Origin: Desulfurobacteriaceae bacterium
Lineage (GTDB): Bacteria; Aquificota; Aquificia; Desulfurobacteriales; Desulfurobacteriaceae
DNA length: 57,072 nt
Assembly: GCA_027068415.1 (NCBI GenBank)
Contig: JAMOTD010000002.1
Location: forward strand, 1-57,072
Direction: 5' to 3'
The notes below the pieces were generated by a model. That model worked only from the letters and a program-made list of their open reading frames with translations. It made no database searches and had not been told where the DNA came from. Every line of letters begins with the position of its first letter. The stretch's first letter is position 1. The position numbers were made by a program, and so were the translations under genes. Of this stretch, positions 1 through 15,329 are shown piece by piece.

Positions 1-504
1 AGCTCTTTTACCGGCTGCTGCCATTTCAACTTTTGCTCCAACTGGATGCTGCATCCAGCCGTTAGCAATCAAAATCCAGAGGGCGGATAGGTTTGAGCCG
101 ATAGATGAAAGCCATGCAGCAAGAAGATGAACAGCCTTTGGAACTCTGTCCCAACCAAAGAGGAATACTCCCATGAAAGTTGACTCCATGAAGAATGCAA
201 GGAGAGCTTCAATGGCAAGCGGAGCTCCAAAGATGTCACCCATGAACCTTGAGTAGACAGACCAGTTCATACCGAACTCAAACTCGTGAACCAGACCTGT
301 CGCAACTCCCAGTGCAAAGTTGATGGCAAAGAGCTTGGCCCAGAATTTGGCCATGTCCCTGTAAATCTCTTTGCCTGTGGCGTAGTGGAGCGTCAGCATC
401 AGCGCAGACAGCGTTGACAGCCCCAAAGTTAAGGGAACAAAAACGAAGTGAAAGAAGGCTGTCATCGCGAACTGCAGTCGCGATACCAGTAGTACGAAGT
501 CCAT
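1..504 (-). CDS. cydA: Cytochrome bd quinol oxidase subunit I, N-terminal part
   Basis: The first 168 residues of CydA; the gene continues past the left edge. CydA carries the quinol site and hemes b558, b595 and d of the membrane oxidase that reduces O2 with quinol electrons. The start is ATG at 504 with GGAGGTGC just upstream. The N-terminus reads [15 protein letters not shown] and has His at residue 19, the position of the conserved heme ligand, followed by F-V-F-V-P-L-T-L-G. Several hydrophobic segments follow, with the G-x-x-x-E-F-E-F-G-x-N-W region typical of CydA. In an H2 oxidiser this enzyme serves microaerobic respiration or O2 detoxification. Only the length is uncertain, because the end is missing. 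Confidence 0.93.
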
Positions 505-5885: not shown

Positions 5886-5918
5886 TCAGTCTTAACAGCT
5901 TGATTTTTGGGGGTGCAG

Positions 5919-6986
5919 TTGGAATTCCACATAGACAGGGCAAAGGTTTTACCCAAGGCAAACCTGTGGGAACTCCTTGAAGGATTAAAGAAGCGCTACA
6001 AACTGATTGCTCCGGTTAAGGAGGGGGAGAAGTTCGCTTTCAGGGAGATTTCCGACGTCTCTTCCGTTGAGCTTAACTACACAAGGACAATCCTTCCCCC
6101 GAAGAAGTTTCTTCTCCCCTACCGCCGTGAGAGGTTCTCCTACGACCCCGAAACGATGGAGTTCAAGAGCTCCTTCAAGGCCGAAGAGCAGGTAATTTTC
6201 GGAATTCACTCCTGCGACCTTCACGGAATCTCAATTCTTGACTCAATCCACCTTAAAGAAAACCCCGACCCCCGCTACCTTGAGGTAAGGAGGAAGACAA
6301 TCCTCATAGGGATTTCGTGCTTTCCAGACGAGTACTGCTTCTGCCTCTCAACCGGGACGGCCTTCCCCGACGGCGCAAACTGGGACCTCTTCCTCACTGA
6401 TGTCGGACCCGACTACTTCGTCTCAATCGGAAGCCCCAAGGGGGATGAGATAGTCCTTACCTTTAAGCACCTCTTCAGGGAGATTGAAAAGGAGGACTTA
6501 GAGCTCTACAAGAGGAGCACCGCCAAGAAGAAGAGGGCTTTTAACGAGGAAAACCTCCCCGACCTTGAGAGAATTTCACAGTTAATAGAGCTTGAGTACG
6601 ACTCCCCCGTATGGGAGGAGGAGGCAAAGAGGTGTTTGGGGTGCGGAACCTGCACCAACACTTGCCCCACCTGTTTCTGCTACACCAGTGTTGACGTCCC
6701 CGACCTTACGGGGAAGGAGGTTAAGAGGATAGAGTTCATCACCTCCTGCCAGTACCCCTACTACTCCCTCGTTGCGGGAGAGCACTACTTCAAGCCCACG
6801 AGAACCTCCCGCTTCAGGCACCGCTACTACCACAAGTTTGTCGGATATCCCTACCAGATAGAGAAGTTGGGGTGCGTCGGGTGCGGAAGGTGCACCGCCG
6901 AGTGCCCCGCCGGGATAAGCATGGTCAAAACCATAAAGAGGTTGAGAGGAGTAGATGAAAAAGAGCTTAGAGAAGTTACTGAATAA
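5919..6986 (+). CDS. hydB: Group 3b hydrogenase iron-sulfur subunit (beta)
   Basis: Electron-transfer subunit of a cytoplasmic sulfhydrogenase-type [NiFe] hydrogenase, about 355 residues, related to anaerobic sulfite reductase subunit A. It passes electrons between the delta and gamma subunits. Two C-terminal [4Fe-4S] sites are visible: C-L-G-C-G-T-C-T-N-T-C-P and C-V-G-C-G-R-C-T-A-E-C-P. A further cysteine-rich stretch (C-F-P-D-E-Y-C-F-C) lies mid-protein. TTG at 5919 follows GGGGGT with 4 bp spacing; GTG 5913 and TTG 5907 are in-frame alternatives. First gene of the operon, in the same order (hydB-hydG-hydD-hydA) as in archaeal sulfhydrogenases. Confidence 0.92.
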   Translation: MEFHIDRAKVLPKANLWELLEGLKKRYKLIAPVKEGEKFAFREISDVSSVELNYTRTILPPKKFLLPYRRERFSYDPETMEFKSSFKAEEQVIFGIHSCDLHGISILDSIHLKENPDPRYLEVRRKTILIGISCFPDEYCFCLSTGTAFPDGANWDLFLTDVGPDYFVSIGSPKGDEIVLTFKHLFREIEKEDLELYKRSTAKKKRAFNEENLPDLERISQLIELEYDSPVWEEEAKRCLGCGTCTNTCPTCFCYTSVDVPDLTGKEVKRIEFITSCQYPYYSLVAGEHYFKPTRTSRFRHRYYHKFVGYPYQIEKLGCVGCGRCTAECPAGISMVKTIKRLRGVDEKELREVTE

Positions 6987-7836
6987 GCCGCTTCCGGCAA
7001 ATCCGTTTCTGCCCTTAAAGGCGGTTATAACCGACGTTGAGGAGCTGGCTCCCGAGCACAAGAAGTTTACCTTCTCATTCCTTGAGCCCTCTGCCTGCGA
7101 GAGGTGGAGCCACATTCCCGGCCAGTTCGTAATGCTTACCGTTCCAAAGGCCGGAGAAATTCCCATCTCAATCTGCTCCTCCCCTACGAGGAAGGGGGTA
7201 ATAGAGCTTACCGTCAGGAAGGTCGGGAGGAAGACCGAAGTCCTCCACAAGCTCGGGCCCGGCGACCTCGTTGCTATAAGGGGACCCTACGGAAACGGCT
7301 TCCCCGTTGAGATTATGGAGGGACACAACGTTCTGATAATAGCCGGGGGGCTCGGAATAGCTCCCCTGCGCTCCCTAATCTGGTACATCCTTGACAGGCG
7401 CCACCTCTTTAAGGATGTCTACCTCCTCTACGGAACGAGGAACTACGAGGCCGTTCTCTACAAGGATGAGCTCTCCCGCCTTAAAGAGAGGAAGGACATA
7501 AAGTGCCTCTACATCCTTGACAGGGTTGAAACTCCCGAGGACGAAAAGTGGAGCTCTGGAAGGGAGGGCCTCATAACGGAGCTCATCGGAGAGGTTGAGC
7601 TTGAGCCCTCTGAAACCTTCGTTGCAGTCTGCGGGCCGCCGGTTGCCTACAAGTTCATCGGCAAGGAGCTCCTTAAGAACGGCTACCCCGAGAGCCAGAT
7701 TTTTGTCTCCCTTGAGAGGAAAATGGAGTGTGGAATAGGCAAGTGCGGCCACTGTCAAATCGGCTACAAGTTTGCCTGCGTTGACGGTCCGATTTTCCCC
7801 CTTTGGGATACAAAAAACCTTCCGGAGATGATTTAA
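6955..7836 (+). CDS. hydG: Group 3b hydrogenase FAD/NAD(P)-binding subunit (gamma)
   Basis: Flavoprotein that exchanges electrons between the hydrogenase and NAD(P)(H), 293 residues. A ferredoxin-reductase-like FAD barrel (I-P-I-S-I-C-S-S-P; G-P-Y-G-N-G-F-P) is followed by a nucleotide-binding domain (I-A-G-G-L-G-I-A-P-L-R-S; V-A-V-C-G-P-P-V). The C-terminus has four cysteines (M-E-C-G-I-G-K-C-G-H-C then F-A-C) for a [2Fe-2S] cluster, as in dihydroorotate dehydrogenase electron-transfer subunits. ATG at 6955 overlaps hydB by 32 bp and has GAGG just upstream, so translation is probably coupled. Confidence 0.93.
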   Translation: MKKSLEKLLNKPLPANPFLPLKAVITDVEELAPEHKKFTFSFLEPSACERWSHIPGQFVMLTVPKAGEIPISICSSPTRKGVIELTVRKVGRKTEVLHKLGPGDLVAIRGPYGNGFPVEIMEGHNVLIIAGGLGIAPLRSLIWYILDRRHLFKDVYLLYGTRNYEAVLYKDELSRLKERKDIKCLYILDRVETPEDEKWSSGREGLITELIGEVELEPSETFVAVCGPPVAYKFIGKELLKNGYPESQIFVSLERKMECGIGKCGHCQIGYKFACVDGPIFPLWDTKNLPEMI

Positions 7837-8598
7837 ATGGTGAAGGTAGGAATTGTAGGCTTAACGGGTTGCTCTGGGTGTCAGTGTGAAATCCTAAACT
7901 GCCAGGACGCCCTTTTAAAACTCCTGACTCTGGTTGACTTTGCCCTCTTTCCCCTTGCAAAGGACGGGGAGTTTGACGGGGAACTTGACCTCCTTTTTGT
8001 TGAGGGCTCCGTTTCAACCTTCCTTGATAAGGAGAAACTCTTAAAGCTCAGGGAGAAGGCGAAAATCCTCGTTGCCGTGGGCTCCTGTGCCTGCTACGGA
8101 GGGGTTCAGGCCCAGAGGAACGACGAGGCCGAGCTTGAGCAGATGATCAGGGAAGTTTACGGAAAATGGGAGCTCCCTTTTGAGCTCTTTAAACCATCCC
8201 CCCTTTCCGACTTCGTTGAGGTTGACTACTTCCTTCCCGGCTGTCCCGTTGACAAGAAGCAGTTTGTCTATACGGTTGCCTCCCTCTTAAACGGGGTTAA
8301 GCCCTTCTTTCCCAAACTTCCCGTCTGCCACGAGTGTAAGCTTTCTGAGAACGAGTGCCTTCTGTTAAAGGGAGTTCCCTGTCAGGGGCCCGTCTCTTAC
8401 GCAGGGTGCGGAGCTCCCTGCACCGCAAAGGGGGTGGGCTGTCAGGGTTGCAGAGGAGACTGCGACTTCCCCAACCACCAGGAGATGCTCTCCCTCTTAA
8501 CCCAGAGGGGTCTTTCCTACGAAGATGCCGTCAAGTTCCTTAAAGTTTTCAGGGGAAACTCATTCAAAGTGAGGGGATTAAATGAGAAAGGAGCTTAA
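7837..8598 (+). CDS. hydD: Group 3b hydrogenase small subunit (delta)
   Basis: Small subunit carrying the cluster proximal to the [NiFe] site, 253 residues. The N-terminus G-L-T-G-C-S-G-C-Q-C-E has the proximal-cluster cysteines, followed by G-S-C-A-C-Y-G-G and P-G-C-P-V-D. The C-terminal third is cysteine-rich (C-H-E-C-K; C-Q-G-P; G-C-G-A-P-C; G-C-Q-G-C-R-G-D-C) and should hold two more [4Fe-4S] clusters. There is no twin-arginine signal, so the enzyme is cytoplasmic. It starts directly after hydG and overlaps hydA by 17 bp. Confidence 0.93.
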   Translation: MVKVGIVGLTGCSGCQCEILNCQDALLKLLTLVDFALFPLAKDGEFDGELDLLFVEGSVSTFLDKEKLLKLREKAKILVAVGSCACYGGVQAQRNDEAELEQMIREVYGKWELPFELFKPSPLSDFVEVDYFLPGCPVDKKQFVYTVASLLNGVKPFFPKLPVCHECKLSENECLLLKGVPCQGPVSYAGCGAPCTAKGVGCQGCRGDCDFPNHQEMLSLLTQRGLSYEDAVKFLKVFRGNSFKVRGLNEKGA

Positions 8599-9892
8599 CA
8601 TCAACCACCTGACCAGGGTTGAAGGCCACGGTGCCGTTGACATAGTTATTGAAAACTCAAGGCTTTCCGAGATAAGGCTGAGGTTTACAGAAGGCCCCCG
8701 TTTCTTTGAGTTCATAACGAGAGAGAGGCTCTATACCGAAATTCCCAAGATAGTCTCCCGTATTTGCGGAATCTGCTACGTCTCCCACAGGCTCGCCTCC
8801 GTCTTTGCCGTTGAGGACGCCTTCGGCGTAAAGGTAAATAGGGGCATAGAGCTCTTAAGGAGCCTCTTAACCGTCGGGGAGTACCTTGAGAGCCACTCTC
8901 TCCACCTCTACTTCCTGGCCCTGCCCGACTACATGGGCTATCCCTCAACCCTCCTGATGGCAAAGGACTACCCCAACGTGGTCAAGCGGGGCTTTAAGCT
9001 GAAAGAGGCCGGAAACAGGATAATGAAGCTGATAGGGGGCAAGACCGTTCACGGTGAGAACATTTTGGTTGGCGGCTTTGCCTCAATTCCCTCTCAGGAG
9101 GAGCTCAAGAAGGTAAGGAGAGAGCTCCTTAAAGTAATCCCCGAGATTGAGGCAACCCTCTTTCTCTTTGACGGCCTTGACTACCCTGACTTTACCTCGC
9201 CCCATACCCTTGAGATGTGCCTTAATTCCCCCTCACCCTGCCTCTTTTCCTCGGAAGTTTGGCTCTCGGACGGAACGACCTTCACAAAGAAGGAGTACGA
9301 GCTCTTTGTAAGGGAGGATGTTTCCCCTTACAGCACCGCCAAGGTCTCAAGGGTTAAGGGTGAGCCCTTCCTTATCGGCCCCCTTGCAAGGGTCAACAGG
9401 CTCTTTAAAGAGGAAGAGCTCCACCCGAAAGTTTCCGAGGCCGTAAAGAGGCTGAAGAACACTTTCCCCTCAAAGAACAGCCACCTTGCAAACCTTGCAA
9501 GGGCGGTTGAGCTCCTTGACGCAGCTTACAGGGGTGTTGAGCTAATTGAGGAACTTCTGTCCCTCTACCCATTTGAGCCTTCGGTTGAGGTTAACCCCCG
9601 GGCTGGAACGGGCTTCGGCGTAAAGGAAGCCCCCAGGGGAACCCTATACCACAAGTACACCTTTGACTCCTCCGGTAGGTGTGTCGGGGCCAACATCATA
9701 ACCCCGACGGCTCAGCTTCAGTCGGTAATTGAGGAGGACCTGAAGGCCATAGTTGAGGAGAGCCTTGAGGCTGAAGGAGAGGAGATAAAGAAGCGGGCCG
9801 AAGTTCTCGTAAGGGCTTACGACCCCTGAATTGCCTGTGCAGTCCACCAGTTCGGTGGAGAGTTTGAGACAGTGAAAGTTATCAGGAGATAG
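8582..9892 (+). CDS. hydA: Selenocysteine-containing [NiFeSe] hydrogenase large subunit (group 3b, alpha)
   Basis: Catalytic subunit that splits or forms H2. A naive reading ends at TGA 9827-9829 after 415 residues and lacks the C-terminal metal ligands. Reading TGA as selenocysteine extends the frame to TAG at 9890-9892 (436 residues) and yields D-P-U-I-A-C-A-V-H: Sec416, Cys419, His422. With Cys62 and Cys65 of R-I-C-G-I-C-Y-V-S-H this completes the four-ligand site, Sec replacing one Cys. A SECIS-like hairpin follows the UGA. The true stop is 2 bp before the next GTG, whose ribosome-binding site lies in the last codons, as expected if ribosomes reach 9892. The tail after His422 (14 residues) would be cut off by a maturation protease. 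A plain nonsense mutation is the alternative and fits poorly. Confidence 0.92.
9830..9859 (+). promoter_or_regulatory. Bacterial SECIS element directing UGA recoding
   Basis: TCCACC at 9843-9848 pairs perfectly with GGTGGA at 9854-9859 around the 5-nt loop AGTTC. The apical loop starts 19 nt after the UGA (9827-9829) and has G as its second base. Bacterial SECIS hairpins, bound by SelB, normally have the apical loop about 16-37 nt from the UGA and a G in the first two loop bases, so both rules are met. An outer CTGT (9835-9838) can also pair with an ACAG downstream (9869-9872), extending the structure across an internal loop. Confidence 0.82.
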
Positions 9893-9894
9893 CC

Positions 9895-10365
9895 GTGGTT
9901 GAGGAGTGCAGGCTATTTAGTGACTTTTCGCCGATTGAGAAGGGAGCTCTCTCGGCAGTCTTAACCCCCGTCTTCTTTGATGAAGGAGAGCTCCTCTTTG
10001 ACGAGTTTCAGGAGGCCGACTCAATCTACTTCATTATGGAAGGAGTTATAGGCCTTTACAGGAGCGACAACTTCGGAAGGTGGACAAAAGTTGCCGCCGT
10101 TTACGGCGGAGCTCCCTTAGGGGAGTGTGCCTTCTTCCTCAAAAAGCCCCACTCTTTGAGGGCTGTGGCCGAAAAGCCCGTTAAGGCTTTAAAACTAACA
10201 AAAAATGGTGCAGAGAGGTTAAAGAGAGAGACTCCCGAGGTTTACGCGAAGCTGGTTGAAAAGCTCGTTGCCATTATGGCCGAGAGGCTAAAGTCGGAAG
10301 ACGCCAAATTCTCTCAGATATGTGGATTTTTCTCTGTTCCGGGAGGGAATAGATGGAGAAGGTAG
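9895..10365 (+). CDS. Cyclic-nucleotide-binding-fold protein without DNA-binding domain
   Basis: A 156-residue protein with one Crp/Fnr-type cNMP-binding beta-barrel (about residues 5-120: F-S-D-F-S near the start, I-Y-F-I-M-E-G-V-I-G-L-Y in the middle, then L-G-E-C-A-F-F-L). A helix follows, but no helix-turn-helix domain. The phosphate cassette is atypical: L-G-E-C-A-F-F replaces the usual G-E-x-x-L/A-x-x-x-x-R-S/T-A-x-A, although R-A-V-A does occur after it. It may bind another ligand or act through protein contact. GTG at 9895 has AGGAG at 9884-9888 inside the last codons of hydA. Its place between two hydrogenase gene sets suggests a regulatory or assembly role, which is inference. Confidence 0.78.
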   Translation: MVEECRLFSDFSPIEKGALSAVLTPVFFDEGELLFDEFQEADSIYFIMEGVIGLYRSDNFGRWTKVAAVYGGAPLGECAFFLKKPHSLRAVAEKPVKALKLTKNGAERLKRETPEVYAKLVEKLVAIMAERLKSEDAKFSQICGFFSVPGGNRWRR

Positions 10366-15005: not shown

Positions 15006-15329
15006 GTGAGGTTTCTCCGTGGACTGCTCCTCTCCCTTATCCTCTGCGGCAGTGCCCTTGCCTGCAGTAGCGACTGCTCCCAGTGCCACACAGTTCCGAA
15101 AGATAGGGAGCACGCCGTTCTCTCTACCTGTGCCTCCTGCCACAGGGAGCACCCGGAAAAGGCCTTTGAGGGAAGGTGCGGTGCAGACTGTTTTGACTGC
15201 CACGACTATAAAAAGGTTATGGAAATCTCCCCCGCCCATAAAGTTTTAGTTAGGTGTGCCGAGTGTCATAAAGCCTTGAAGGAGAAGAGTATTCCCTTGC
15301 CACTTAAGGAGCTCTTGGGAGGTGAATAA
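15006..15329 (+). CDS. Small periplasmic tetraheme cytochrome c
   Basis: A 107-residue protein with an export signal (M-R-F-L-R then a hydrophobic stretch to A-L-A at residue 19) and four C-x-x-C-H heme c motifs at residues 24-28, 42-46, 62-66 and 84-88. Extra histidines at 36, 49 and 78 could be second axial ligands. The A-L-A site fits signal peptidase I better than a lipobox. The start is GTG at 15006, 10 bp after the EchE-like stop. A cytochrome c on the other side of the membrane is not part of classic Ech, which makes its place in this operon odd. I do not recognise a specific named family. Confidence 0.9.
   Translation: MRFLRGLLLSLILCGSALACSSDCSQCHTVPKDREHAVLSTCASCHREHPEKAFEGRCGADCFDCHDYKKVMEISPAHKVLVRCAECHKALKEKSIPLPLKELLGGE

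Follow-up and report, generated by a model that had tools for sequence, protein, structure and literature searches.

The 17-nt hairpin at positions 9843-9859 of the forward strand of the window, by which we mean the whole 57,072-nt stretch of DNA from a thermophilic Desulfurobacteriaceae bacterium analysed here, is on comparative sequence evidence very probably (about 95%) the bacterial SECIS element of a selenocysteine (Sec)-containing group 3b [NiFe] hydrogenase large subunit. We consider the SECIS reading convincing because the hairpin is common to orthologues with an in-frame UGA, is absent where cysteine (Cys) is encoded instead, and lies in codons whose synonymous choice is constrained. 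The signal itself is of a known type; its carrier, subgroup 3b, is outside the usual selenium enzymes. The relevant features are the following.

5907..6986 (+), hydB-like beta subunit, 4Fe-4S (HydB 318.6 bits, below the curated cut-off; Fer4_22)
6955..7836 (+), hydG-like gamma subunit, FAD/NAD-binding (profile matches)
7837..8598 (+), hydD-like small (delta) subunit (HydD 185.5 bits and ShyD 180.2 bits, both below the curated cut-offs; Oxidored_q6)
8582..9892 (+), hydA-like large subunit of a group 3b (sulfhydrogenase-type) [NiFe] hydrogenase, 436 residues with a predicted Sec416, true stop TAG at 9890-9892
9827..9829 (+), UGA, predicted Sec residue 416, first ligand of the C-terminal DP(U/C)xxCxxH motif
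9843..9848 (+), 5' arm of the putative SECIS stem, UCCACC, positions 17-22 counted from the U of UGA
9849..9853 (+), apical loop AGUUC
9854..9859 (+), 3' arm of the putative SECIS stem, GGUGGA, from sequence reading and pair counts
9848..9889 (+), tail codons after His422 (Q423-R436), holding most of the hairpin; removal by a maturation protease is presumed

The four-gene block at 5907-9892 finds its best matches among the beta, gamma, delta and alpha subunits of sulfhydrogenases, and it has the HydA/HydD/HydG/HydB-like four-subunit make-up that marks group 3b. Three of the subunits match sulfhydrogenase subunits best, while the best NCBIfam match of the gamma subunit is PRK08345, followed by ShyC and HydG. 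The large subunit scores below the equivalog cut-offs for both ShyA (NF040828; 340.7 against 700 bits) and HydA (NF040832; 305.5 against 880 bits). Its closest solved relative is the HydA of sulfhydrogenase I (PDB 9nez, 9e15 and 9e1j; E 1.7e-83), which belongs to a complex of the same four-subunit make-up, which we take to come from Pyrococcus furiosus, and which has Cys where the window protein would have Sec. Elsewhere in the window, the NuoD-like large subunit in a group 4 hydrogenase cluster is directly followed by a protein of 107 residues (15006-15329) that has four CxxCH motifs and is, by eye, a small tetrahaem-type cytochrome c.

Direct reading of the sequence places an in-frame TGA at 9827-9829 (+) within the hydA-like gene. 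With this UGA taken as Sec, the C-terminus reads ...RAYDP-U-IACAVH-QFGGEFETVKVIRR-stop, and alignment with Cys orthologues and the PDB chains puts the Sec codon at the nickel-ligand Cys of DPCxxCxxH. His422 (9845-9847) is the last residue of the motif DPUxxCxxH. Two solved sulfhydrogenase 1 alpha chains of the Pyrococcus furiosus homologue (9e15_B and 9e1j_B) end at the His of CxxH, and by analogy the mature window protein presumably ends at His422 with its tail clipped, so that 12 of the 17 hairpin bases (9848-9859) would encode a discarded tail. An earlier note on this DNA had held that the residues A-V-H-Q-F-G-G-E serve the hydrogenase motif; this stands for A-V-H, whereas Q-F-G-G-E falls in the presumably cleaved tail beyond His422, so that RNA and protein demands coincide over a shorter stretch than the note stated.

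The hairpin has the DNA sequence TCCACCAGTTCGGTGGA and the RNA sequence UCCACC-AGUUC-GGUGGA, in which six Watson-Crick pairs join 9843-9848 to 9854-9859. Thirteen nucleotides separate the UGA from the stem, whose first base is the 14th nucleotide after the UGA; the apical loop is 19 nt away and its second base is G. Both the perfect 6-bp stem with its 5-nt AGUUC loop and this spacing had been described in the earlier note, and sequence reading and folding confirm them. The isolated hairpin folds at -8.6 kcal/mol. Folding the RNA between the UGA and 9892 gives its stem pairs a probability of 0.99-1.0; with 60 nt upstream and 30 nt downstream included, the value is 0.70-0.80.

The published model of bacterial SECIS (bSECIS) elements, as set out in the available text of a 2026 review, describes a loop of 3-9 nt, a stem of 4-16 bp, a spacing of 16-37 nt, a free energy of -7.5 kcal/mol or lower and a G as the first or second loop base, in many cases with G or U next to it on the 3' side (PMC13188914). 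The window hairpin lies immediately 3' of an in-frame UGA and inside the coding region; its 5-nt loop, 6-bp stem, 19-nt spacing and free energy all fall within these limits, and the loop A-G-U-U-C has its G at the second position. The earlier statement that the hairpin agrees with bacterial SECIS rules is thus upheld, and the comparison of Sec and Cys orthologues described below supports it.

Taken by itself, the rarity of the hairpin is only modest, and it is conservation that makes the case. The folding energy of the 61-nt region does not stand out against shuffles (z of -1.35, with 22 of 200 shuffles folding as well or better). Among the 1751 UGA triplets on both strands of the window, 43 (2.5%) are followed by a Watson-Crick stem of at least six pairs in the model geometry and 14 (0.8%) by a hairpin in that geometry at least as stable as 9843-9859. 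When the 20-residue tail was recoded synonymously 20,000 times, a model hairpin at or below -7.5 kcal/mol arose in 5.1% (own codon usage) to 6.0% (pooled usage) of the recodings. An Rfam scan yielded no family at gathering score anywhere in the window; to our knowledge, Rfam lacks a general family for bacterial SECIS elements.

A search of 61 genomes, the window's own included, for full-length HydA orthologues returned 14 with one internal UGA (the window's own and 13 others, 64-86% identical to the window protein) and four without UGA from another genus of the same family (55-57% identical). The duplicate loci L078 and L079, repeats of L021 and L024, are left out of the Sec count, and L034, in which a contig end cuts HydA at residue 216, is left out of all hairpin counts. 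The UGA occupies the same motif position in all 14 Sec orthologues, where the four family Cys orthologues have UGU or UGC; the alignment row of L021 starts 3 nt late and omits its UGA, which is present in the locus sequence. The hairpin accompanies the UGA in 14 of 14 cases, and 83 of the 84 pair cells over the 14 sequences are paired (98.8%). The sole exception is the outermost pair of L029, from a genome (G002) that we take to be Thermovibrio ammonificans. The earlier note had made its proposal depend on the stem persisting in relatives that keep the UGA, and persist it does, with one outer pair lost in one sequence.

Judged by the model threshold of -7.5 kcal/mol, applied to the hairpin in isolation, 13 of the 14 independent (non-duplicate) Sec loci, which form one clade and not 14 independent events, carry a model hairpin; L029, with five inner pairs at -6.7, does not. 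The -7.5 line is no sharp test, because two FdhA hairpins of the family, taken alone, score -5.4 and -7.4. In contrast, a model hairpin occurs in none of the four family Cys orthologues, in none of 11 Cys relatives from the same class and in one of 78 Cys loci elsewhere (among the best 80 loci listed), and that one is a different hairpin. The hairpin therefore tracks Sec, being kept in UGA orthologues and absent from Cys orthologues.

Three parts of the Sec machinery are also encoded in the genome. SelB scores 437.5 bits against a cut-off of 242.25, SelA scores 622.8 bits, and selD (L170, G000 C31:2171-3097) itself has an in-frame UGA with a GGUC-loop hairpin. A UGA-containing selD occurs in 21 of 22 family genomes, the 22nd (G018) holding a fragment only, and tRNA-Sec exceeds the Rfam cut-off in 20 of the 22, the exceptions being the window's own genome and G020. 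Neither a family model nor the DNA of the same-genus neighbourhood located tRNA-Sec in the window's own assembly. In G001, of the same genus, tRNA-Sec lies between a PHP-like gene and radA (named by eye), beyond a Gly-Met-Tyr-Thr tRNA cluster. Since contig C33 of the window's genome (L011) begins at the tRNA-Gly of this cluster, and since radA was likewise not found in that genome, an assembly gap, not loss, apparently hides tRNA-Sec, its PHP-like neighbour and radA. The genome is rated 99.98% complete despite the apparent gap.

Other selenoprotein genes of the family carry comparable elements. All 10 SelD loci read have a hairpin 17 nt after the UGA; nine of these hairpins have the loop GGUC, and that of L172 has AGUU. 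Two FdhA genes have a hairpin at 18 nt with the loop GGUCU. Like these, the hydrogenase hairpin stands directly behind its UGA in the coding region and has a small loop with G then U, and all of these loops lie 17-19 nt from their UGA. The hydrogenase loops are AGUUC or AGUUU, as against GGUC or GGUCU in most sister elements. The AGUU loop in the SelD of L172, a family selenoprotein gene unrelated to the hydrogenase, suggests that the family SelB accepts such a loop. The hairpin of E. coli fdhF exemplifies the bacterial SECIS element, and the E. coli SECIS has a bulged U17. The hydrogenase hairpin has no separate bulged U below its loop; U9843 (position 17) and A9859 form a pair in 13 of the 14 sequences, and in L029 this U is unpaired.

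Among formate dehydrogenases, a TIGR01553 search of the window's genome for a Sec enzyme gave no in-frame UGA. Among the TIGR01591 matches listed for the whole family, UGA occurs only in G011, G005, G020 and G001, and in none from the window's genome. Partial formate-dehydrogenase-like matches with an in-frame UGA lie at G001 C1:295039-295806 and G020 C117:5122-5889 (frames of 1018 and 1021 residues).

We considered it improbable that the hairpin regulates how the cNMP-binding-domain gene behind it (from 9895) is translated, whether instead of Sec insertion or besides it. The next open reading frame does start 2 nt after the stop, with GTG at 9895, and the last two Arg codons, AGG AGA (9884-9900 region), contain an AGGAG that resembles its Shine-Dalgarno sequence. 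Because of this 2-nt gap and the AGGAG, the hydrogenase and cNMP-binding-domain genes are probably translationally coupled, and UGA readthrough may be coupled to translation of the latter. The hairpin, however, goes with the UGA and is absent from Cys orthologues, and the SelD and FdhA hairpins resemble it at similar spacing, all of which argues for a role in Sec insertion.

A second alternative, that the hairpin is kept simply through conserved A-V-H-Q-F-G-G residues and has no RNA role, seems very improbable. These residues are invariant in the 14 Sec orthologues, and the compensatory changes that the earlier note had proposed to look for in relatives are lacking: no pair is changed on both sides among the 14 sequences. 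Because the stem is invariant and double-sided changes do not occur, covariation is uninformative; it speaks neither for nor against a SECIS, and synonymous-site invariance is the substitute test. We examined the 170 alignment columns of the 14 genes at which an invariant residue has more than one possible codon. Over these columns, codons agree in 50% of sequence pairs, against 38% expected from codon usage. A single codon is used in all 14 genes at just seven columns (F42, F111, C419, V421, H422, Q423 and G425), four of which lie within the six hairpin codons (hypergeometric 1.5e-5, with columns treated as exchangeable and local rate differences ignored).

Within the hairpin, the G426 codon is the same in 13 of 14 genes and that of F424 is the only free one (UUC in five, UUU in nine). 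Its third base is the last loop base, and UUU, which makes the loop AGUUU, adds an A-U pair that closes the loop to a GUU triloop. The codon window 421-426 ranks first of 67 by synonymous constraint; in the family Cys orthologues V421 is GTT in four of four and H422 is CAT in two of four. Third codon positions are thus fixed throughout the stem whereas the one at the end of the loop is free, the exact six pairs of 9843-9859 are regenerated in 1.1% of the 20,000 random synonymous recodings, and Cys orthologues carry MFGA (MFKA in L033) where QFGG is fixed in Sec orthologues, though the enzyme is the same. These observations count against a purely protein-level explanation and suggest that the tail residues may follow the RNA.

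That the UGA is an ordinary stop, with the large subunit ending at Pro415, the downstream sequence untranslated and the hairpin a chance or regulatory structure, is scarcely credible: UGA is a standard stop at which automatic ORF calling ends and the hairpin alone is modestly rare, but such a product would be without the two cysteines of the C-terminal motif, the frame past the UGA is open and similar in the 14 orthologues (tails of 21-28 residues from the UGA), the four family orthologues encode Cys at this position, and selA, selB and selD are present.

With the hairpin taken as a SECIS element, the following mechanism can be proposed. The C-terminal domain of SelB would bind the 17-nt hairpin in the mRNA and, together with GTP and Sec-tRNA(Sec), would deliver Sec to the UGA, which precedes the loop by 19 nt; translation would then run on for 20 codons to the TAG at 9890. 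Sec416 would replace the nickel-binding cysteine of DPCxxCxxH and its selenium would presumably ligate the nickel. After metal insertion, the tail behind His422, whose codons hold most of the hairpin, would probably be clipped off.

A tree built from 39 large subunits unites the 14 Sec proteins (94/96); their neighbours are the family Cys proteins and an Aquificota Cys protein (L080), and everything further out is Cys. A single gain of Sec from Cys is the simplest history that the tree suggests. Sec may instead have been gained and then lost once, since the fork uniting the Cys neighbours is supported at 88/77 and long branches are flagged. The Cys genus (L030-L033) has tRNA-Sec and a UGA-containing SelD in four of four genomes. 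UGA is absent from the orthologues of two genomes in another family of the class (G131 and G135; 50% identical). Among 136 Aquificota genomes, 48 match at E 1e-60 or better, with UGA only in the 14 of Desulfurobacteriaceae. Of the best 80 group 3b contig loci listed, from a scan with two peptide patterns of which one requires Cys, 78 are Cys and the two with UGA are Desulfurobacteriaceae already counted. The UGA-plus-hairpin pattern was not found in viral contigs, and the plasmid collection gave no match. We lean towards a history in which this group 3b (NADP/sulfur-linked) lineage gained Sec once in Desulfurobacteriaceae from a Cys ancestor, a disposable tail being rewritten from MFGA-like residues to QFGG and thereby made into a SECIS; the tail residues would now be set by the RNA and not by the protein.

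In known [NiFeSe] hydrogenases, namely HysA (1a), FrhA (3a) and VhuU/VhuA (3c), Sec occupies the place predicted for it here, as the first ligand residue in the C-terminal DP(U/C)xxCxxH motif. Their UxxC motif is tabulated in the available text of the 2026 review, which places [NiFeSe] enzymes exclusively in sulfate reducers and methanogens (PMC13188914). Table 1 of HydDB, in the text available, gives [NiFeSe] variants under 1a, 3a and 3c, not 3b (PMC5037454), whereas the large subunit of the window groups with 3b. The hydABCD genes of T. ammonificans (Theam_0484-0487) are assigned to group 3b and adjoin a group 4 Ech cluster, and thus share family, group and group 4 neighbourhood with the window operon; in the accessible parts of that paper HydA is described as unique to Desulfurobacteriaceae and selenocysteine is named once, for a tRNA (PMC5441870). 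The excerpted text of another study refers to a predicted NiFeSe enzyme of Nautilia (PMC10092268). In partly accessible and mostly open-access literature on Desulfurobacterium, Thermovibrio, Aquific- or group 3b, we found no description of a group 3b hydrogenase with Sec, and an earlier report is possible.

If true, a Sec-bearing group 3b enzyme would be an addition to the standard [NiFeSe] list. The recoding signal offers a clean case of one that lies mostly inside a probably discarded peptide, and standard annotation likely truncates genes of this type, with loss of the active-site motif. The Sec and Cys enzymes, as close orthologues (55-57% identical) whose hosts both have Sec machinery, form a natural pair for probing the part that selenium plays in the enzyme. 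In hydrogen oxidisers of hydrothermal vents, Sec is thus very likely used by a [NiFe] hydrogenase subgroup that is usually not counted among the selenium enzymes.
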